NCBI GenBank assembly: GCA_036984305.1 | Contig: BQWY01000001.1 | Span: 4,113,501-4,177,500 of the forward strand | Direction: 5' to 3' | From: Nitrospira sp. | GTDB lineage: Bacteria; Nitrospirota; Nitrospiria; Nitrospirales; Nitrospiraceae | DNA length: 64,000 nt | Shown: one piece after another, positions 23,201-31,032 of the stretch | Position numbering within the stretch: position 1 is the first letter of the stretch | Layout: every line of letters begins with the position of its first letter | Notes under the pieces: model-generated | What the model saw: the letters and a program-made list of their open reading frames with translations, nothing else | What the model was told of the DNA's origin: nothing | The model's database searches: none | Translations under genes and position numbers: made by a program

Positions 23201-23782
23201 CACGGTTTGATTGACGTCCTGTAAGTGCAATTCGGTGAACACCGTTGCGAGGTGCCCACCAAGTGAATAGCCTGTGACATTCAGGACGGCATTGGGCGGA
23301 AGCTTGTCTGGGTTTGCTTTCAACTCCCTGTAGTAACGCTCCATGCTCACGAGCTGCGCGAGGGCAAAGCCTGTCCCTGCAATTTCTCCTGCCGCGCCAG
23401 AGGCCCCATCCCTTTCCCAGTCTCCACCATCCCCTTGGTTCTGAAATTCGACGCTGCGAAAGGAAAGGGTGTACATCGTGCCGGCCGGATCGCTCAAATC
23501 TTTAATCAGTGTCGCACTAAACCCGGTTGCATCGTTGGCGTGGTGATCGAGGATTTGATAGCTCGCCATGGAGCCCGGAGTAGGAACGAAATATGAGGTT
23601 AGCTGGTCCGTGAAACGGGTTTTTCCTAAGAACTCTTCAGGCCGGATCATGCGGATATCGTTATTGCCATCCGTCAAGATGTCCTTCAACTGGCGACCAG
23701 ACACCAGCTGATCAAGGTATGACTCCGCAGCCATCTGCTGAAGTGCAAACTGTAGCCACGTTGAAATGTTACTTTGATTCAT
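14222..23782 (-). CDS. Giant RTX protein with N-terminal lipase-like domain
   Basis: 3,186 residues. Residues 1 to about 555 are a lipase-class-3-like alpha/beta hydrolase region: nucleophile elbow GYSLGGH (171-177, Ser173), a candidate His in TSHS near 336, and a second conserved block around 460-545. From about 560 come dozens of GGxGxDxLx nonapeptides broken by haemolysin-type calcium-binding-related segments (pattern YxFNxGDGxDxIxD ... FADGT). Three Ig-like (He_PIG type) domains lie at about 2472-2775, then more RTX repeats and a C-terminal tail ending AVLAASW, where type I secretion signals usually sit. It has no N-terminal signal peptide and no transporter nearby. Extracellular, calcium-folded, possibly lipolytic. 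The ATG overlaps the upstream gene by 14 bases, with AGGA about 8 bases before it. Confidence 0.9.
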   Translation of the reverse strand: MNQSNISTWLQFALQQMAAESYLDQLVSGRQLKDILTDGNNDIRMIRPEEFLGKTRFTDQLTSYFVPTPGSMASYQILDHHANDATGFSATLIKDLSDPAGTMYTLSFRSVEFQNQGDGGDWERDGASGAAGEIAGTGFALAQLVSMERYYRELKANPDKLPPNAVLNVTGYSLGGHLATVFTELHLQDVNQTVTFNGAGRGHLLGGSPGLPEEEQIRELLQYVEVEILKWDPSGEVFTSGTAGNIYDQSWYKGIRGQAVVEYTPTNSFVPPGEVGTSPGFEKITQLVGSAFHGDQPFVANSGVHGSPTELFIEDQPDFDGVGGIWGGPGSFGTSHSITLLVDSLALMELFQEVDDTLDQATIERIFAAASSQRASGFIGTSGIAEGNSLENALDALHKIIDPAASPTSFGRQTGDFGSLFFRNQFYAHMEEIRGRIAPGLFQIQSLVGNEHLAGSLARSATTDGMAYRYALKELNPFVVLGVDYGVLHNQDQSLDLYDAKTGQGTWTALALSDRADLLAKRLQFNTNDGDTVPTDTHYVDVQSGFEVGGIDSANEVIFGDDRVGDVIIGHSGGDHLYGRGGADSIEGNGGSDYIEGGNGNDPLLSGGSGNDIIFGQEGNDFLVGGEGLDTLDGGLGDDRLEGGTGADRYVYFTGQGLDRIKDSDEIGSIIFDRYVLVGGIRKEDDQIDTYRSLDGQFTYVKKGADLVINGELTIENFDFTSGSLGIKLADTGNLPDGSLPPIDYGSPDPALTRTSVGTEGNDQLDLSGGGGRYVGQLYGLGGNDYLISISPYGTDQMFGGTGSDVLAGGMDNDQLHGDEGNDGLIGGAGQDVLYGGEGQDVLIGDWISGTLSTPDADYLDGGAGNDTLQGQDAGDTLLGGDGDDELYGDDSPVSIAGQPFENPTPRRQGDDYLDGGAGHDFMAAGLGDDVLYGRSGNDFLYGDNSPAGDLQVWQGNPDIPLFDGFTMGIATGDRQAFFSREGGSDYLDGGDGDDYLQGDGGDDVLLGGTGADQLLGDDDQIAAVQEGQDWLEGGAGNDLLVGGGGEDALFGGDDDDVLVGDYANNSTLGFDDTLDGGAGNDELQGGGGADLLKGGTGNDRLFGQDGEDTLYGGAGDDIGLGGAGDDVLSGEDGNDQLDGEAGDDLLFGDEGNDILFGGAGQDLLDGGTGDDFLIAGDGDDTLFGGNGADELQGGAGADLLSGGLGNDRLFGQDGNDQLFGDEGNDLLRGEGDNDVLFGGAGLDRLFGDDGDDQLYGEEGADTLEGGAGADLLEGGTGDDHLDGGSGDDTYHFNLGDGSDVIVDAAGEGNLVRFGPGITSSDLVLTPVAGALQIRVGSAGDRLTIQGFAAGNLSAPFAIDRYEFADGTVLTHAALISRGFTYVGTTGNDVLVGGTSGLNILAGGAGDDTYVVTHETDRIIEYPGGGTDTVRTSVDFTLPDQVENLSASISEGESGGPVRLTGNQLGNVIQALSGVATDNVLEGLGGNDQLFGFEGNDVLDGGTGDDVLNGGVGSDTYWFGVGDGQDVAIDQSAPGSDIDTVQFKAGVSPTDVRLRLEDNQQTGMLDLAVELISSGDRLILRNRFAERMTFADGTVWDAAMIESRTEGLTLTASPTGSALFGTTYRDTLIGSEGNDYLDGRGDTDTMIGGNGNDTYVVDQPGESVIEAAGQGRDTVQSFVDFTLPENVENLELNAIDFFGPTPLNGSGNNSDNDLRGNYRNNILQGGGGNDRLWGGFSDAGTGPGDDKLFGGAGDDTYFYTSVNEGVDTIHDTVIPGEGNRLAFGGQIRPQDLTLTEVAGNLRIDVGSVGGAVVLAGYDSSDVNGNGVVERVEFGRQIGSENVGFEIELSKLQDVTYGTAGGDVLIGTAGVDVLRGNAGDDELIGSEGNDILSGGEGSDTYVFNLGDGVDLIDDLASTSEQNRVVFGAGITPDSLRLETSGVSSDALLTIHVGPHGDAIQFLGFQPYDSASPRAVDIFEFADGTTKTFDALVARGAEMRGTNADDGELFGTFANDLLRGFGGSDSLYGDQGDDVLIGGLGNDYLTGGNGSDTYVYNLGDGVDEIEDDVDRFHVPVDHNRVVFGPGITPADINWSDRNGGLFIAVGSDGGGVNLGPYVDAVPFGISTLEFADGTALHTETLIDAVVNSGGIISTGETDDNLLVGGQGADELMGGSGRNLILGGDGNDSLIGGSGPNHMYGGNGDDVLQGGTGSNVMHGGSGSNLLLAGSGPNTFLIDPSGALNTIRFPTPPVPGDNRIEFGGSYGQFNPSLGLGSLMIRYGTEGGELHIEGFDPSNAYQNSGIDTFAFSDRILSYSELIDLGFDLSGTVAGEVLVGTSATDRMSGLEGNDELRGGEGNDELTGGAGDDLLVGGAGNDTYHFNVGDGVDTIQDDVEGDGSNDIRFGLGISRRDLTVTQDSEAHTLSIRVGWNGDTIQLTNFDPTGVNGTPVIKTLAFADGSTVELAELIGGPVNHEPTVFRLLDNLTIPEDTSISISIPSDTFADADGGELTLSTGLANGEGLPTWLSFDAATHTFSGTPNDAQVGTWDLRVTATDPGCLSVTDSFLLTVTNVNEAPTVDALLADQMATEDAPFTFSVPMSTFADEDLVHGDTLAYSAALADGTAVPSWLTFDPVTRTFSGTPDNADVGTLALTLSATDTAGLTTATGLNFTVRNVNDAPTLTHPIVDQSAEEDSPFMLVIPSDSFADEDLIHGDVLTYGASLADGNPLPNWLDFDQVTHSLTGTPGPGDAGTFQLAVTASDTQGVSVSTAFLLNVSGPLPQTLAGTEGDDVLIGGRGDDALLGFGGDDLLSGGDSADWLDGGPGADSMVGGAGDDTYLVDSVEDVVAEGVNGGTDTVRATISYTLGNHVENLTLTGGAALNGTGNGLDNTLIGNSGINVLRGRAGNDTYVVGAGDTVIETADQGTDTVQSEVSWILSSYVENLTLTGSDSINGFGNGLNNVLVGNSVANTLDGGSGHDTIRGMDGNDSLIGGSGNDVLMGDAGDDVLSGGSGVDDLDGGDGDDQLDGGSGDDRLAGGAGDDILVGGSGSDDLIGGGGNDLLNGGSGTDRYFFSRGDGRDLITDSSGTDVLNFESGINPLDLMISRQANDLRLSLYGTADQVTIGNWYGGAGNQIETLTTGSGQQLINSQVDQLIQAMASFTQQTGLSWEDAIAQRPQDVQAVLAASWQ
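15461..16367 (-). repeat. Three tandem Ig-like (He_PIG) repeats inside the RTX gene
   Basis: Three consecutive repeats of about 97-100 residues, each with a core like FADEDL-HGD, a PxWLxFDxxTxxFSGTP segment and a T/SATDxxG end, followed by the linker NVNEAPT or NVNDAPT. The first copy is the most diverged. They separate the long N-proximal RTX block from the C-terminal one and probably act as a rigid spacer or adhesin-like module. Confidence 0.85.
16600..22105 (-). repeat. Main RTX nonapeptide repeat block
   Basis: Residues about 560-2395 of the giant protein are dominated by GGxGxD repeats that fold into calcium-binding beta-rolls. Several non-RTX segments of about 80-100 residues (YxFNLGDGxDxI ... 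FADGTxxxxxxLxxxG) interrupt them at fairly regular intervals. Because of the repetitive codons, the opposite strand shows many long open frames here that are not genes. Confidence 0.85.
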
Positions 23783-24737
23783 GGAGTTTGTCCTGCGAAG
23801 GTACCGGCTTCAGTACTTCATTAATGAACTGCGTGTCTGTTTTCAGTGATTCTTTGGAGCATTTCTCTGCTGTAAGCCACCAAACCCCGGTCAAGTTATT
23901 CCGAATAGAGCCGCTTCTAACAAAGCTGCGTCTCGCAGCGAGCACCTCATTATTTTGCAGGTCGAGCACGATAAGTTCTCCGCCCGCAATTCCAAGCTCT
24001 CGATCATGCGGACGTGTAATCCCCCTCCATGTATATCCGTACCGACTTCGGGTCTTAAAATCCTCCTCCACAGCTACGACATATGGCACCTGAACAAATT
24101 GGCCGTTGATAGCAGTTGGAAATTGACTTCCTGGGTGTGCCTTTTCATCACGATAATACCGCCGATATCTGGGACCCTCCCGTTTCTTGGTAGCCAGTGG
24201 CAATGGGATTTCGAGATACTGGTACTTGCCAATAGCGGGCTGAACAAAATAGTCTTGGGGAGAATCCCGCACCCCTACCGCCAATCCATACGGATCCTCC
24301 ATTGCATAGAGATGTTGCAACAGGTCGTCATCCTTAGCAGACTCCCTAAGCCGCATCATGTAGAGCCCATCCACGTTCTGCACGGTGTTGTAGATGAACT
24401 CGCCCGCTTCCGTTTTGCAGAGATGATCGAAGTACTCTAGTGAAGTCATCCCAGGCTTGTAGCCGCTGTCGGCGGGGACGGGGTTGGGTATCTTGAGGGA
24501 ATGGGCGAACCGTCCTTCTTCCGTTGCCAATGGATCTGCAGGTTTCAGTTTGGCGACTGCCCCGCACACCTCGTTCGGTTCCAACCTTCGCTTGCCACAG
24601 GCAGCTTCAATCTCCTTGAGTGCCTTTCGAAACCGCTCGCCCACCGTTTCCTGGTCAAAGAGTCCAGCACCAGCTAGACTTGTTCCGACCAGGCTCGTAG
24701 TCGTCAAAACCAGAAATGATTTCGTCATCCAGCTCAT
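23769..24737 (-). CDS. Secreted protein of unknown function, coupled to the RTX gene
   Basis: 322 residues from the ATG at 24737, chosen because AAAGGAG lies six bases upstream; the more upstream in-frame ATGs would bury that site. There is a signal peptide (MTKSFLVLTTTSLVGTSLAGA). The mature part has no family I can name; recognisable segments are YNTVQNVDGLYMMRLRES, QHLYAMEDPYG, RYRRYYRDEKAH, RYGYTWRGITRPHDRELG and GVWWLTAEKC. Its 3' end overlaps the RTX start by 14 bases, so expression is likely coupled. It might be a chaperone, inhibitor or co-secreted partner of the lipase-like RTX protein; that is inference from position only. Confidence 0.82.
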   Translation of the reverse strand: MSWMTKSFLVLTTTSLVGTSLAGAGLFDQETVGERFRKALKEIEAACGKRRLEPNEVCGAVAKLKPADPLATEEGRFAHSLKIPNPVPADSGYKPGMTSLEYFDHLCKTEAGEFIYNTVQNVDGLYMMRLRESAKDDDLLQHLYAMEDPYGLAVGVRDSPQDYFVQPAIGKYQYLEIPLPLATKKREGPRYRRYYRDEKAHPGSQFPTAINGQFVQVPYVVAVEEDFKTRSRYGYTWRGITRPHDRELGIAGGELIVLDLQNNEVLAARRSFVRSGSIRNNLTGVWWLTAEKCSKESLKTDTQFINEVLKPVPSQDKLHESK

Positions 24738-25226
24738 GAGATGCTCCTTTGACATCGCCGTCCGCACTGTGGACGCCAATGCAAACTTCGCCATCCTAGC
24801 GAATGTGTTTTACGGAATCGAGAGAACAGAGGTAGGTCTCCCACCCCTCTGTGGAGGAATGTCCTGTGGGTCCCAAACCTATCACGATGCCGGCCACGGC
24901 GTCACTTCGACAAGGTTTTTGAGCCATATGCATATGGTCTCTCCACCATAGCTATTGCCATATATGAGGAGATGCAACAATGGCAGAAGGCGAGAAGTCA
25001 GTTCCATTATCATGTAGGTCTTGGTCGGTAAACCCCTCGTCGCTTCTCCTCGCCGAACATCACACCGAAATGACCCGCTATGGTTTCTAGCTGAACGCTT
25101 GGGGGCAGTTCCCCAGCAGCCACTCAGATGTCGACGCCTCACGGGCTCGTCAGTTGCTAACTTAAGAGCAGAGGAGTAGCGTATTGCCATCCTCGCCCTT
25201 ATACCCGATACCCAGGAGGCTCTCTC
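24738..25226. other. Divergent intergenic region, about 490 bases
   Basis: No gene is supported. It must hold the promoters of the secreted-protein/RTX pair (leftward) and of the beta-propeller gene (rightward). It contains a perfect 14-base palindrome at 24924-24937 and a good ribosome binding site (AGGAGG, just before 25227). Confidence 0.7.
24924..24937. promoter_or_regulatory. 14-base perfect palindrome, possible operator
   Basis: CCATATGCATATGG is its own reverse complement and sits in the divergent spacer, about 190 bases before the minus-strand start and 290 before the plus-strand start. Its AT-rich core differs from the local GC-rich sequence. Operator function is a guess. Confidence 0.35.
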
Positions 25227-26396
25227 ATGAAACCGGTTCGGCTCCTCGCGTTGGCCCTTGCTATGCTGCTGTCGTCCGCGTCGCTCGCCTCGTCGGAAAT
25301 TCTCGCGCTCTTGAACTATGAAAGTAAGAAGGATCAACCGGTGCGGCGGGAAGGGATCGCGATCATGGACATCGATCCCAACTCGTCGAGCTACGGCAAG
25401 ATCCTCATGGAGCTTCCGCTCCCGCCCGATCTCGTCGCCCATCACATTTTCTTCAATCGCGATAAGACCAAGGCCTACGTCACGGCCTTGGGGAAAAGCC
25501 TGCTGCACGTCGTGGACCTGACCCGGTTCCCCTACCGGATGCGTGCCATCGCGGTGCCCGACTGTCAGGTCGGCGAAGATCTGGTCGTCTCAGAGGACAA
25601 TCGAACCTGGTACCTCACCTGCATGGGCTCGAGCACGGTCATCGTCGGGGACGCGATCAAGGATGAGCCCATTAAGACGGTGAGCGCGCCTGCGCCCGGA
25701 GAGACCTATATCCAATATCCGCACGGCATTGCGATCCATAACGGGATTGATCGCATTCTCGTCACCAGTACGGTCAAACCGGACATGTCGGACGTCGGCG
25801 AGTCGGTCACGGTGCTCGAAGCCAGTTCCGGGAAGGTGCTCTCGACACACAAACTCTCCATGAAGCCTTCGCCTGCCAAATCAGCTCCCGTCGAAATCAT
25901 GTTCAGCCCCAAGTCCGATCCCCCTGTGGTCCATATCACCAACATGATGGAAGGGACATTGTGGGCCGGAACGTGGGATGCCGCGAGCCAGTCGTTCACC
26001 TTCGAGCAAGTCGACGATTTCAGCACACGCCAGCAGGGCATGCCTTTGGAGATGCTCTACAACGCAAAGGGCGACCGGTTATTCGTCACCACGGCCAAGC
26101 CGGGTTTCGTCAACCTCTATGACAATACCGACCCGCGCCACCCGAAGTTTCTGAAGACGATCCCCGCGGCGGCCGGCGCCCATCATAGCGTGCTCTCACC
26201 CGACGAACGGTATCTGTTTGTCCAAAACAGTCTCCTCAATATGGACGGCCTGAGCGATGGGTCCATCACGGTGATCGACCTGGAGAAGGACAAGGTCTTG
26301 GGGAGTATCGATACGCTGAAGGAGCAGGGATTCAATCCCAATTGCATCATGCTGCTGCCGAACCATTTCAAGCAAACCGCCTCGCGCACCCGATGA
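25227..26396 (+). CDS. Exported beta-propeller (YncE/YVTN-like) protein
   Basis: 389 residues: a signal peptide (LLALALAMLLSSASLASS) then propeller-type blades such as AYVTALGKSLLHVVDLTRFP, YPHGIAIHNGIDRILVTST, HHSVLSPDERYLFVQN and GSITVIDLEKDKVLGSID. The start is supported by AGGAGG seven bases upstream. Such proteins are usually periplasmic or secreted and bind ligands or partners; the specific role is not visible. It stands alone on the plus strand and is divergent from the RTX pair. Confidence 0.85.
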   Translation: MKPVRLLALALAMLLSSASLASSEILALLNYESKKDQPVRREGIAIMDIDPNSSSYGKILMELPLPPDLVAHHIFFNRDKTKAYVTALGKSLLHVVDLTRFPYRMRAIAVPDCQVGEDLVVSEDNRTWYLTCMGSSTVIVGDAIKDEPIKTVSAPAPGETYIQYPHGIAIHNGIDRILVTSTVKPDMSDVGESVTVLEASSGKVLSTHKLSMKPSPAKSAPVEIMFSPKSDPPVVHITNMMEGTLWAGTWDAASQSFTFEQVDDFSTRQQGMPLEMLYNAKGDRLFVTTAKPGFVNLYDNTDPRHPKFLKTIPAAAGAHHSVLSPDERYLFVQNSLLNMDGLSDGSITVIDLEKDKVLGSIDTLKEQGFNPNCIMLLPNHFKQTASRTR

Positions 26397-26686: not shown

Positions 26687-28471
26687 GTGACGACTCGCCC
26701 AAGTGGATCCTCAAACATTCGTTACACGGTGGAGGAATCGCCACCTCATCTGCTCGCGGCAGGCCTTGGGGTGCAGATTGTAGTGCTCATCATTGCGGGG
26801 ATTGTCCTGACGCCTATCGTGGTGTTGCGAGCAGCGGAAGCCGACCTGCAGCACGCATCCTGGGTCGTCTTTGCAGCGCTCTTGATCAGTGGCCTGACTA
26901 CAATGGTCCAGGCCAACCCTCTGGGCCGCATTGGGGCTGGCTACGTGCTGTTCATGGGGACCTCCGGCGCCTTTATTGCCGTCGGCACGACGGCGGTGAC
27001 AGACGGTGGGTTGCCGTTGCTGATGTCCCTGGTCGTCGTCTCGTCGCTGGTCCAGTTTTATTTTGCAGGACGATTGGGAACGATTCGCCGTATCGTCACG
27101 CCCACTGTCGGAGGAACTGTCATCATGCTCATCGCGGTGACGGTCTTTCCTATCGCGTTTGGCCTGTTAGGAAAGGTCCCGGATCTTGCCGAAGCCAATC
27201 CAAATTCGGCGCCAATCTGCGCTGCAGCCACGCTCGGCGTCATTGTCGGCATCTCGCTTTTCGGCGGGCGTGCCGTACGATTGTGGGCGCCTATTATTGG
27301 AGTCCTTGTCGGGTGCATCGTTGCCGGCATGTTCGGGCTGATGGATTTTTCCCGCGTGGCCTCACAGGCATGGATCGGCTTGCCGAATGCCTCGTGGCCA
27401 GGATTTGACCTCTCGTTCGACACCCGCTTCTGGGCCCTTCTCCCCGCCTTTGTCATTGTGACCCTCGTCGGAGCCATTGAAACGTACGGGGATGGCATCG
27501 CCATTCAGCGCGTGTCGCATCGCACTGAGCGGGCCGTTGATTTCCGTGCCGTCCAGGGCGCCGTTTATGCCGACGGGCTCGGCAACCTCTTGTCGGGGAT
27601 GGCCGGGACATTACCCAATACGACCTACTCGACGAGTATCTCAGTCGTCGATATCACCGGCGTGGCGGCACGTCGAGTGGCCCTGTATGCCGGTGCCTTC
27701 ATGGCACTCATGGCGTTCTCACCCAAACTCGCCAACCTCCTCCTTGCGGTCCCTGATCCAGTGGCTGGGGCCTATATTATCGTGTTGCTCATTCTGCTGT
27801 TCGGCCACGGCATCCGGCTCGTCGCCGAGAACGGTCTCTCCTATGAAAATGGCCTGGTAGTGGGTCTCGCTTTTTGGCTCGGTACCGGGTTTCACAATCA
27901 ACAGATCTTTCAGGAACTCCTGCCTCACTGGGGCCGTACCTTGCTGAACAACGGCATGACTTCCGGCGGCCTCCTCGCCGTGGGATTGATGCTGCTGGTC
28001 GCCGCACGTGATCGTGCACACGACCGATTGTCGGTGCAACTCGACGTGAAGGCAATCCCGATCGTCCACCAATTCATCGGTCGGTTCGCTACGGGGCTCG
28101 GGTGGGATCGAGCGGCGGTGGGACGCCTCGAACTGGTGACAGAGGAAGCGTTGCTCCACCTCATTGAGCGGCAGGGCACGGAGACCACGACGCAAAGAAA
28201 GATCCACCTCTCCGTGCGCTACGAGGCAGAAGTGGTGGAGCTGGAAATCATCGCGGGTCCGCAGCAGGCAAATATGGAAGATCTGATGAGGCTCTTGAAG
28301 AGCGGAGGAGCGCTTGTCGAGGACGATTTATCGCTTCGGCTACTGCGTGAACTTGCGCTAGAGATCAAGCACCAGCAATTCCATGGTATCGAATTTCTTC
28401 TCATCAAAGTCGACAGTCGTCCATTACACCAGACCGAGGACCAGTCGGACACGGCGCCAGCAGCACCATGA
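26687..28471 (+). CDS. NCS2-family permease fused to a degenerate RsbW-like ATPase domain
   Basis: 594 residues. Residues about 20-440 carry 12 or more membrane spans and NCS2 (nucleobase/ascorbate transporter) signatures: AIETYGDGIAIQRVSHR (near 263-279) and GTLPNTTYSTSISVVDITGVAARRV (near 307-331). At the second site the acidic or Gln residue common in UraA/XanQ is replaced (TTYSTS), so the substrate is open. Residues about 450-578 are cytoplasmic and resemble an anti-sigma HATPase (RsbW/COG2172): LELVTEEALLHLIERQG aligns with the N-box but His replaces the key Asn, and the DxGxG box is missing. ATP binding is therefore doubtful. It converges on STAS and PP2C genes, suggesting control by partner switching. 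The ORF starts at 26687; the ATG shows no strong ribosome binding site. Confidence 0.87.
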   Translation: MTTRPSGSSNIRYTVEESPPHLLAAGLGVQIVVLIIAGIVLTPIVVLRAAEADLQHASWVVFAALLISGLTTMVQANPLGRIGAGYVLFMGTSGAFIAVGTTAVTDGGLPLLMSLVVVSSLVQFYFAGRLGTIRRIVTPTVGGTVIMLIAVTVFPIAFGLLGKVPDLAEANPNSAPICAAATLGVIVGISLFGGRAVRLWAPIIGVLVGCIVAGMFGLMDFSRVASQAWIGLPNASWPGFDLSFDTRFWALLPAFVIVTLVGAIETYGDGIAIQRVSHRTERAVDFRAVQGAVYADGLGNLLSGMAGTLPNTTYSTSISVVDITGVAARRVALYAGAFMALMAFSPKLANLLLAVPDPVAGAYIIVLLILLFGHGIRLVAENGLSYENGLVVGLAFWLGTGFHNQQIFQELLPHWGRTLLNNGMTSGGLLAVGLMLLVAARDRAHDRLSVQLDVKAIPIVHQFIGRFATGLGWDRAAVGRLELVTEEALLHLIERQGTETTTQRKIHLSVRYEAEVVELEIIAGPQQANMEDLMRLLKSGGALVEDDLSLRLLRELALEIKHQQFHGIEFLLIKVDSRPLHQTEDQSDTAPAAP

Positions 28472-28503: not shown

Positions 28504-28842
28504 CTAGCCCGGCCTATGGCGTGTTGCTTCACCCACATTCCCGTAGATTGAGAAGAGAGATCTAAAGCCCGCGATTTCGAATACCTCCAGAATATGCGGC
28601 TGAAGGGTCGACAGCACAATGGTCCCCTGCGCACCCTTGAGCCGCTTGGCCGCCACAAGAAGCACACGAAGGCCTGTGCTGCTGATGTACTCCAATGCCT
28701 CTCCATCGACGACGAGGTGCCGTTCACCGGAATCAATTAATCGGCCCAAATGGGTGCCCAGGCTTTCTGCCGATTGTGAATCCAGCCGTCCCTGCACACG
28801 CACGACACTGACGTCCCCTATCTTGCGATCAATAATCTCCAT
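28504..28842 (-). CDS. STAS-domain anti-sigma factor antagonist
   Basis: 112 residues from the ATG at 28842; a GTG at 28857 is the alternative. It is a single SpoIIAA/RsbV-like STAS domain: VSVVRVQGRLDSQSAESL, then LEYISSTGLRVLLVAAKRL with the phosphorylatable Ser in the ISSTGL turn. In the family, the unphosphorylated form binds a HATPase anti-sigma partner. It lies downstream of the PP2C phosphatase gene with less than 30 bases between, so the two form an operon: the phosphatase would dephosphorylate this protein. It is convergent with the permease gene, 32 bases apart. Confidence 0.92.
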   Translation of the reverse strand: MEIIDRKIGDVSVVRVQGRLDSQSAESLGTHLGRLIDSGERHLVVDGEALEYISSTGLRVLLVAAKRLKGAQGTIVLSTLQPHILEVFEIAGFRSLFSIYGNVGEATRHRPG

Positions 28843-28869
28843 AGCCTCGTGCCTCACTGTGCCCGCCTT

Positions 28870-31032
28870 TCACCGGACACGTTTCATGAGCGTGACATAG
28901 TTCTTGCCGGCCTGACGGCGATAGGCCACCTCATCCATCATGGACCGGACCAGGTGAATGCCGAGGCCCCCAACGGGACGTTCTTCAATCGGGCTCGTCA
29001 GATCTGGGCTCGCCACCTCCAATGGATTGAACGGTTTCCCATCGTCCTCAATTTCGGCGTGAACGTGGTCGTTGACCACACTGAGGCGCACCACGATGTG
29101 ATGCTCCGCGTCATCGTCATAGCCATAGGCGATGGCGTTTGTAATCAGCTCTTCCAGCGCAAGATTGAGCGCGCGAAGGTGTGGAACGGCCATGTCGTGC
29201 TCGTCGGCGAATTGGTCCACTGCCTGTGCCAGACGACCCAGCTCCGGCAGCCGATTTTGCAAGGTGACGGTGAGAGAGGCAGAGGTCATCATCAGTGCCG
29301 GGCGTCGCCCATAGCGTAATACCAACATCGTGATGTCGTCAGCCTGCACGACATTTCCCGCGTATTGATTCACTTCGGTGATCACCGTCCGAACCAGGTC
29401 TCGGGCAGAAAGGCCGGCGTGTTGATGTAGAATGTCTTCCAAGCGCGGTGATGAAAACATGTGCCCACGTGCATCCATCGCTTCCGTGACACCGTCCGTA
29501 TAGAGAAACAATGTGTCTCCAGGTAGCATGGCAATGCCACTGGTAATATATGGCGCATCCTCCACGATACCGAGGGCCACCCCTTTTGAAGAATCCAGAG
29601 ACACGAGTTGGTGGTCGTGGAGTAGATACGGCACGTTATGGCCCGCACTGCTGTACTCAAACCAGCCCGTTCGAGTGTTCAGTATCCCATAGAATACCGT
29701 CACAAACATTGCCGACTCGTTATCCGGACACAGCAGATGATTGACGTGCTCCAGGCACGCAGAGACGCCTACATCCTTCAACGCCGTGGCCTTGATCAGC
29801 GAGCGGCTCACGGCCATAAAAATGGCGGCCGGCACTCCTTTGCCGGAAACGTCTGCAATAACGATCCCAAGTCTCTCCCGGTCGATCAGGAAGAAATCGT
29901 ACAAATCGCCGCCCATTTCCAGGGCCGGAATCGTTTCCGCATAGATTTCGAAGTCGTTCCGATCAGGAAATGGTGGAAACGTCCTGGGTAGGATCGACTT
30001 TTGAATATCACTGGCGATACGCAATTCGCTGCCCAGCCGTTCCTTCTCGGCCATGGTGCGGCGGAGCTCCTCCGTACGTTGCTCCACGCGTTGCTCCAAG
30101 AGGGCATTCGCATCCTGAAGCGCGGTCTGCTGACTCACGATCACCGATGCCATTTCAGAAAACGACTGGCGTAAATTCGCGACCTCATCGCCTGAGGATT
30201 GCACGCGCCGGGGTTGAGCGGGGACGTTCCCGAGCTGCCGTTCCGTGCCAAACGTGATCATTCGCTGGGACAACTCGACAAGGGGCCGGGAGACGATCCA
30301 ACGCGTGCTCACCGACACGATCCCGAACACGAGCAGGCAGAGCCCTAATCCGCCGCCTACCGTGAGCACCAAGTCACGTTGGCTTTCGGCGACATACCGA
30401 TCCATGGGGATGACGACTTCCAGACCACCCATGAGACCGTTGAGGTGAAAGTCACGCTTCGGACTGGCAGGGTGTGCATTGTGGCACGCCACGCACGACT
30501 GAGCGGAAGCCAGGTCGGCTAACAGGACCCGCATGACTGCCTGCCCTTGTACGGTGTCGGTACGGACAAACGGCGTGCCTGGGTCGCGCATCAGAGAGGC
30601 AAATCCGTCCCGTTCGAACTCATCCCGTGGTCCCTGTTCCTTGTTGATCGGCCAGGGACTAATGAGACGGGTCGTGTAACTATTCCCGCTCTGAGCGATC
30701 TCGTCTGATACCTCACGAACAAAGGTGGCCGGCAGTGGGAATCGGCCATGGACATCCCGGTAATCGGGCCCCATCGAAGCTCCCATGTCGGTAATCCGAG
30801 GGACCACGACAGAGGCATAGTATTTACGGTCCGCCATGATCTGATGTGCAATGCTCGTGGCTCGATGACTAAGCTTTTCCTGAAGTTTCTCGGCATTTCG
30901 AACGTGAACTTCCCACGCCGCGACGAGAGTCGTCCCGGCAATCAAGGGCACGGTCAGCATCACGAGCTTGAACCCAATCCGCCAATCTGAGGCCTTAGCT
31001 GTTACCGGGGAATGCATGACCCCAATACCCAT
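28870..31032 (-). CDS. Haem-type DUF3365 sensor / HAMP / PP2C phosphatase / HATPase protein
   Basis: 720 residues, inner membrane. Order: TM1 (about 20-40); periplasmic DUF3365 (Tll0287-like) domain with the c-type haem motif CVACH at 180-184 in the family context SCVACHNAHPASPKRDF; TM2 (about 220-242); HAMP; coiled coil (about 295-340); SpoIIE/RsbU PP2C domain with metal-binding acids in GGDLYDF (D376), DVSGKG (D394), TDG (D513) and DDITML (D566); C-terminal RsbW-like HATPase with intact N-box (LEELITNA, N632), EDDGKPFNP and GGLGIHL. It can in principle both phosphorylate and dephosphorylate the STAS protein next door. ATG 31032 is listed; ATG 31017 is possible. Confidence 0.92.
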   Translation of the reverse strand: MGIGVMHSPVTAKASDWRIGFKLVMLTVPLIAGTTLVAAWEVHVRNAEKLQEKLSHRATSIAHQIMADRKYYASVVVPRITDMGASMGPDYRDVHGRFPLPATFVREVSDEIAQSGNSYTTRLISPWPINKEQGPRDEFERDGFASLMRDPGTPFVRTDTVQGQAVMRVLLADLASAQSCVACHNAHPASPKRDFHLNGLMGGLEVVIPMDRYVAESQRDLVLTVGGGLGLCLLVFGIVSVSTRWIVSRPLVELSQRMITFGTERQLGNVPAQPRRVQSSGDEVANLRQSFSEMASVIVSQQTALQDANALLEQRVEQRTEELRRTMAEKERLGSELRIASDIQKSILPRTFPPFPDRNDFEIYAETIPALEMGGDLYDFFLIDRERLGIVIADVSGKGVPAAIFMAVSRSLIKATALKDVGVSACLEHVNHLLCPDNESAMFVTVFYGILNTRTGWFEYSSAGHNVPYLLHDHQLVSLDSSKGVALGIVEDAPYITSGIAMLPGDTLFLYTDGVTEAMDARGHMFSSPRLEDILHQHAGLSARDLVRTVITEVNQYAGNVVQADDITMLVLRYGRRPALMMTSASLTVTLQNRLPELGRLAQAVDQFADEHDMAVPHLRALNLALEELITNAIAYGYDDDAEHHIVVRLSVVNDHVHAEIEDDGKPFNPLEVASPDLTSPIEERPVGGLGIHLVRSMMDEVAYRRQAGKNYVTLMKRVR

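Follow-up and report, generated by a model that had tools for sequence, protein, structure and literature searches.

How could a domain resembling an anti-sigma kinase serve a membrane transporter, particularly one in which the residues that such kinases use for ATP are missing? The question is posed by an open reading frame of the forward strand (positions 26687-28471, the last of which closes the stop codon; 594 aa) in a 64,000-nucleotide stretch of a Nitrospira sp. genome (GenBank assembly GCA_036984305.1, contig BQWY01000001.1, positions 4,113,501 to 4,177,500), referred to below as the window.

A transporter with an added domain

Residues 1-440 of the encoded protein (26687-28006, forward strand) constitute an NCS2/SLC23 (Xan_ur_permease) membrane domain with the 14-helix UraA/UapA fold; reading frame, permease and C-terminal tail were all as a sequence-only reading of this DNA had described them (open reading frame list; PF00860 over residues 27-402, E 2e-46, 158.9 bits against a Pfam cut-off of 27). 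The score for NF037981 was 44 (cut-off 40), and that for the PbuX xanthine permease model TIGR03173 was 233 bits, far under the curated cut-off of 414. In a Foldseek search of the PDB, the full-length model (pLDDT 82, pTM 0.77) matched UapA, UraA and the vitamin-C transporter SVCT1 best, with SLC26 transporters ranking lower, and the 7+7 fold of UraA and UapA is present (E 8e-17 to UapA). The last membrane helix, TM14, spans residues 423-443 and is followed directly by a domain of about 150 residues; the tail start proposed earlier, position 28020, was accurate to within a few bases (the domain runs from about residue 445), and its proposed end, 28471, takes in the stop codon.

Fold, Pfam family, TM8 Glu/Asp and TM9 Asp are common to the tailed permease and to the NCS2/NAT permeases UraA, UapA and PbuX, and the alignment retains Glu265 and Asp269 of TM8 and Asp296 of TM9 in most family members, which suggests that transport persists. 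The tailed family departs from these permeases in its added domain of 150 residues, in TM1, where the QH pair of UraA and UapA has become QI or QL, and in TM10, where [Q/E]-N-x-G is replaced by T/S-S-x-S/A (T-S-x-S for short) in an alignment of 105 homologues against UapA and UraA; the TM10 motif is typical of characterised NCS2 members and is not required by the fold. A tailed relative of 31% identity from another Nitrospirota genome (L110:1480-3219), with His at the N-box position, has a near-canonical TM1 QH and the TM10 sequence C-E-N-x-S. Clustering of gene neighbourhoods revealed no conserved metabolic neighbour that would point to the permease substrate, the radical SAM, SDR, KAS and ATPase-like neighbours of family members (named by eye) being clade-local. 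Upstream of the permease, the window contains two sizeable open reading frames (25227-26396, forward strand; 23769-24794, reverse strand) with zero Pfam matches at E 0.01.

An RsbW-like tail without the ATP motifs

Profiles and predicted structure identify residues 441-594 (28007-28468, forward strand) as a degenerate RsbW/SpoIIAB-like domain of the GHKL type (HATPase_c_2), with the order strand-helix-helix-strand-strand-helix-helix-strand-strand in the predicted structures. Taken alone, the window tail is sub-threshold for HATPase_c_2 (19.4 bits against a Pfam cut-off of 27.4, E 0.001); among 49 homologous tails, 27 are matched by the family model, at best with E 9e-9, and profile-profile comparison (hhalign) of the tails with intact neighbouring HATPases gave E 4e-8. 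For a tail-only AlphaFold (AF2) model (pLDDT 85, pTM 0.79), the first 19 Foldseek matches in the PDB are all chains of RsbW, UsfX or SpoIIAB, many of them in complex with a STAS partner. The model superposes on Bacillus subtilis RsbW from the RsbV/RsbW complex over 115 residues (Z 16.5, rmsd 2.1 Å), and RsbW, UsfX and SpoIIAB as a group match at Z 14-16.5, ahead of SiaB (Z 12.1), LvrC (Z 11.6) and histidine kinases (Z 8 or less); the RsbW-like fold suggested by the sequence-only reading is thereby recovered. As the tails gave a weak result in a sequence-profile search of the PDB (RsbW 6m36 at E 0.09, alongside chance histone matches), the fold claim rests on the structural and profile-profile comparisons. 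Both the predicted structure and Foldseek place the tail in the GHKL group, not among STAS domains. Chance similarity to RsbW was considered as an explanation and is ruled out by the Pfam matches of homologous tails, the Foldseek results, the Z scores and hhalign.

The tail therefore shares its fold and element order with the kinases of the RsbV-RsbW, SpoIIAA-SpoIIAB and RsfB-UsfX switches, but differs from them in being fused to a transporter and in lacking the N-box Asn, the DxG motif and GGLG altogether. The hhalign row sets the intact window neighbour LALEELITNAIAYG against the tail LVTEEALLHLIERQ, with Asn opposite His491 (codon 28157-28159, forward strand), the first Asp of DxG (DDG) opposite Ala523 and GGLG opposite DDLS (546-549); the earlier observations of His at 491 and of a missing DxGxG box were correct. 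Nor is the degeneracy peculiar to this protein: the N-box position is occupied by T75, Y9, S8, F5, L3, I3, H1 and V1 in the 105 homologues, with Asn in none, and is never Asn in 26 further members aligned pairwise (from L109 to L144, some being the same genes as earlier loci). All nine aligned neighbouring HATPases, stand-alone or fused, keep N, D and GGLG.

Other positions of the tail are held with great constancy. Glu486-Glu487, in the former N-box helix, Leu553 and His562 are invariant in the 105 homologues, and Asn529, Arg551 and Gln564 nearly so; H562-Q-Q-F565 (28370-28381, forward strand), on the strand after the former G-box helix in the alignment and model, represents a family motif HQQY/F (H in 105/105, Q564 in 102/105). 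Over 377 pairs, dN/dS has a median of 0.17 in the tail, against 0.14 in the permease part. Recent decay or a frameshift is ruled out by these ratios together with full-length conservation, and the pattern of substitution marks the tail as an old, maintained pseudo-kinase under purifying selection. From the aligned residues it can be inferred with confidence that ATP binding has been lost across the whole family. Since the motifs are missing family-wide and the tail is under purifying selection, it appears to be kept for something other than ATP binding, most probably as a catalytically dead relative of the RsbW/SpoIIAB anti-sigma kinases, as judged from alignment and models. The earlier proposal of a domain that might engage a partner without ATP hydrolysis stands as regards fold and motif loss, and its partner-binding half is a plausible extension; the conserved HQQ and E-E residues alone do not say which partner that would be.

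Occurrence of tailed permeases

When one genome per species was scanned with the window protein as sole query, zero relatives were returned, and a search of plasmids with the tail alone gave zero matches; with an alignment as query, the genome scan returned at least 556 candidate stretches. The 80 matches listed include Nitrospirota, Acidobacteriota, Pseudomonadota, Actinomycetota, Planctomycetota, Latescibacterota, Chloroflexota, Spirochaetota, Binatota, Rhodothermota and other phyla, and the tail is present at every one of the 105 loci examined together. The family is thus widespread and ancient, and the earlier view of the fusion as uncommon does not hold overall; it is apt within the window's own family, of which this genome is the only carrier among those sampled. 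Among Nitrospirota, 15 of 396 genomes have the gene; such a patchy distribution, with a sole carrier in the sampled family, suggests horizontal gain. The fusion of an NCS2 permease with an RsbW-like tail is not described in the literature consulted, which was poor in subscription journals.

For part of the carriers, record names (Spongia_Bin9 and lac_sponge, for example) suggest sponge symbionts, a label that presumably applies to the bulk of the carrier bin names. Up to four paralogues per genome occur among loci L028-L107 and L129-L143, many of which come from sponge-symbiont genomes. At L068:8683-9528 and L079:8011-8475, the full gene is followed within about 1 kb by a partial second copy, which matches permease residues 17-76 only.

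Partner-switch genes beside the permease

The sequence-only reading left out the genes that adjoin the permease, which supply the most informative evidence. Convergent with it and 32 bp away lies a gene for a STAS-only protein resembling anti-sigma antagonists (28504-28857, reverse strand; Pfam STAS E 3e-19; TIGR00377 above cut-off), whose candidate phospho-site, Ser60 in YISSTGLR, occupies the position of SpoIIAA Ser58 in an alignment made by eye. The next gene (28870-31032, reverse strand) encodes a 720-aa sensor phosphatase/kinase comprising a c-heme Cache domain, HAMP, PP2C (SpoIIE) and an intact HATPase_c_2. Its Tll0287-like (heme Cache) periplasmic sensor domain (residues 48-209; 30406-30891, reverse strand; Pfam E 4e-19) contains CVACH, a CxxCH motif, at residue 180; its PP2C/SpoIIE domain covers residues 385-574 (29311-29880, reverse strand; Pfam E 3e-50); and its RsbW-type HATPase_c_2 domain (residues 594-717; 28882-29253, reverse strand) has the N-box Asn, DDG and GGLG. 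PP2C, intact HATPase and a STAS protein with a phosphorylatable Ser are accordingly encoded together at 28504-31032 on the reverse strand. The 720-aa protein is the genome's only strong match to HATPase_c_2 (PF13581, E 1e-26; others at most 35 bits) and to PP2C (PF07228, E 2e-51; one other at 30 bits), and the adjacent STAS gene scores best of four in the genome, so that, by these domain searches, the window holds the genome's only complete phosphatase-kinase-STAS switch, beside the permease. The locus resembles the RsbW, SpoIIAB and UsfX partner switches in having STAS and PP2C genes nearby but, unlike those systems, belongs to a genome in which the search for the sigma B/F/G family gave zero matches above cut-off and six sub-threshold matches, all far from the locus.

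Comparable arrangements recur elsewhere in orders of their own. The window reads permease> <STAS <PP2C-HATPase, convergent and not one operon; an alphaproteobacterium (L029) has PP2C-HATPase>STAS>permease at 63 bp, a member of the Chromatiaceae (L031) STAS>permease> <HATPase, a planctomycete (L039) permease>STAS>HATPase, a gammaproteobacterium (L113) STAS>HATPase>permease, and Halieaceae (L075/L122) RR-PP2C>STAS near the permease. A second set of Nitrospirales paralogues lies beside switch-type genes at ten loci; near this paralogue, an MreB-like gene is found upstream on the opposite strand (L014-L024, ten loci). At L121:6462-6930 (reverse strand), the HATPase between STAS and the tailed permease seems frameshifted in the assembly, being present as two overlapping pieces. 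In a remote branch of 25% identity (L117/L120), the apparent operon is STAS>permease-tail>PP2C, and in L120 (4120-7650) these three stand without a separate kinase gene between them, so that the tail sits in RsbW's place; the tails of this branch are even more degenerate than those of the main family, too much so for recognition by Pfam, their homology being based on blastp alignment and position in the protein. An Azospirillum permease of the remote branch (L108:4983-6701) has no switch genes beside it.

Switch genes adjoin the permease in at least 6 of 43 clusters at 80% identity, many flanks being short, and STAS, HATPase and PP2C genes are absent from the examined flanks of most members, the majority of sponge-symbiont copies among them, from which it follows that adjacency is not required. 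Given that the genomes checked contain merely 3-7 STAS matches per 2.9-6.0 Mb, chance adjacency can be roughly estimated at about 1% per locus, and coincidence hardly explains a linkage that recurs in several phyla with the genes differently arranged.

Possible functions of the tail

The preferred reading, to which a probability of about 0.5 is assigned, is that the transporter is gated by a phosphorylation-switched STAS protein through docking on its dead tail, the tailed permease forming the output end of a partner switch. In the window, the periplasmic c-type-heme sensor of the 720-aa protein, responding to NO or redox state, would set the balance between its PP2C and HATPase activities and thereby the phosphorylation of STAS Ser60; STAS would then dock on the RsbW-like tail in one of its phospho-states, most likely when unphosphorylated. 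Because the tail would be unable to bind ATP, and hence to phosphorylate STAS and release it, docking would last until the neighbouring kinase acts, and would either raise or lower transport. Within this scheme we infer the identity of the signal, docking itself, the phospho-state that docks, the direction of the effect and the substrate. By analogy, a partner switch of the Hsb/Sia type with a transporter as its output would be the most economical reading of the locus. The odds are somewhat against the broader proposition in its entirety, namely that these proteins may form a widespread, undescribed SLC23/NCS2 class with a dead-RsbW tail, gated by Ser-phosphorylated STAS and here subject to a c-heme NO/redox sensor.

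It is the direction of information flow, from STAS to transporter or the reverse, that holds the preferred reading to this value and leaves some weight on its converse. In the latter, the permease would be a transceptor: occupancy by substrate would determine whether the tail holds or frees STAS, or titrates it from the neighbouring kinase, with the transporter as input and gene expression or another target as output. The anatomy and linkage are the same for both directions, and the replacement of canonical Q/E-N-x-G by T-S-x-S in TM10 fits altered transport; yet the retention of Glu265, Asp269 and Asp296 in most members suggests that transport persists, and the neighbouring PP2C-HATPase already has a sensor of its own, which together make a transceptor rather unlikely. 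Comparably doubtful is a tail that acts as a structural or dimerisation domain, or as a new ligand pocket derived from the old ATP site, with the switch genes controlling something else. Such a tail would accord with the absence of switch genes near most members, with the location of the most constant residues (Glu486-Glu487 in the former N-box helix and H562/Q564) and with the SLC26 transporters, whose C-terminal STAS domains are reportedly needed for stability and function (PMC8256260), but it sits poorly with repeated switch-gene linkage in varied gene orders and several phyla. There is very little to recommend an anti-sigma role, in which the tail would capture a sigma factor at the membrane in the manner of RsbW: although the tail's fold neighbours are anti-sigma factors, some of them solved with a sigma factor (8jzt, 1l0o), and RpoS-like sigma factors can be held by HsbR/CrsR-type systems (PMC6482189), the absence of above-cut-off SigB/F/G matches from the genome speaks against it.

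Relation to known systems

Partner switches are known mainly from the control of sigma factors and lately from that of cyclic-di-GMP enzymes; a transporter that contains an ATP-dead RsbW of its own would add a new output to these. In Pseudomonas aeruginosa, the HsbR-HsbA-HsbD and SiaA-SiaB-SiaC-SiaD systems are partner switches with a non-sigma output, in which PP2C and HATPase control a STAS or STAS-like protein whose phospho-state selects the output protein (PMC6482189; PMC7647112). HsbR combines PP2C and kinase in one chain, as does the 720-aa neighbour in the window, but Hsb and Sia act on a diguanylate cyclase or on FlgM/RpoS, whereas the candidate output here is a transporter with a dead RsbW-like domain; neither a diguanylate cyclase nor FlgM is among the annotated genes adjacent to the window switch. 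On the input side, Tll0287 domains are c-heme Cache domains, and a tested HAMP-linked member behaves as an NO sensor, binding NO but failing to form a stable complex with oxygen (preprint PMC12889525). The 720-aa protein shares with the described heme-Cache (Tll0287/DUF3365) sensors the CxxCH-bearing domain and HAMP but differs in coupling them to PP2C-HATPase; PP2C is absent from the text of that preprint, where phosphatases appear only as general HAMP context (PMC12889525).

The window thus presents a compact set of three neighbouring genes, for the sensor-PP2C-kinase, STAS and the tailed permease. The family is common among uncultured bacteria associated with hosts, in which its genes are likely annotated merely as xanthine/uracil permeases. 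A final parallel is offered by the SLC26/SulP transporters, which have a related 7+7 fold and, like the tailed permease, carry one half of a partner switch at the cytoplasmic C-terminus; the half carried by SLC26 is STAS (RsbV), while that of the tailed SLC23/NCS2 proteins is the kinase (RsbW). Should the preferred reading of STAS docking prove true, the tail would offer a counterpart, in mechanistic terms, to the debated role of STAS on SLC26 transporters.
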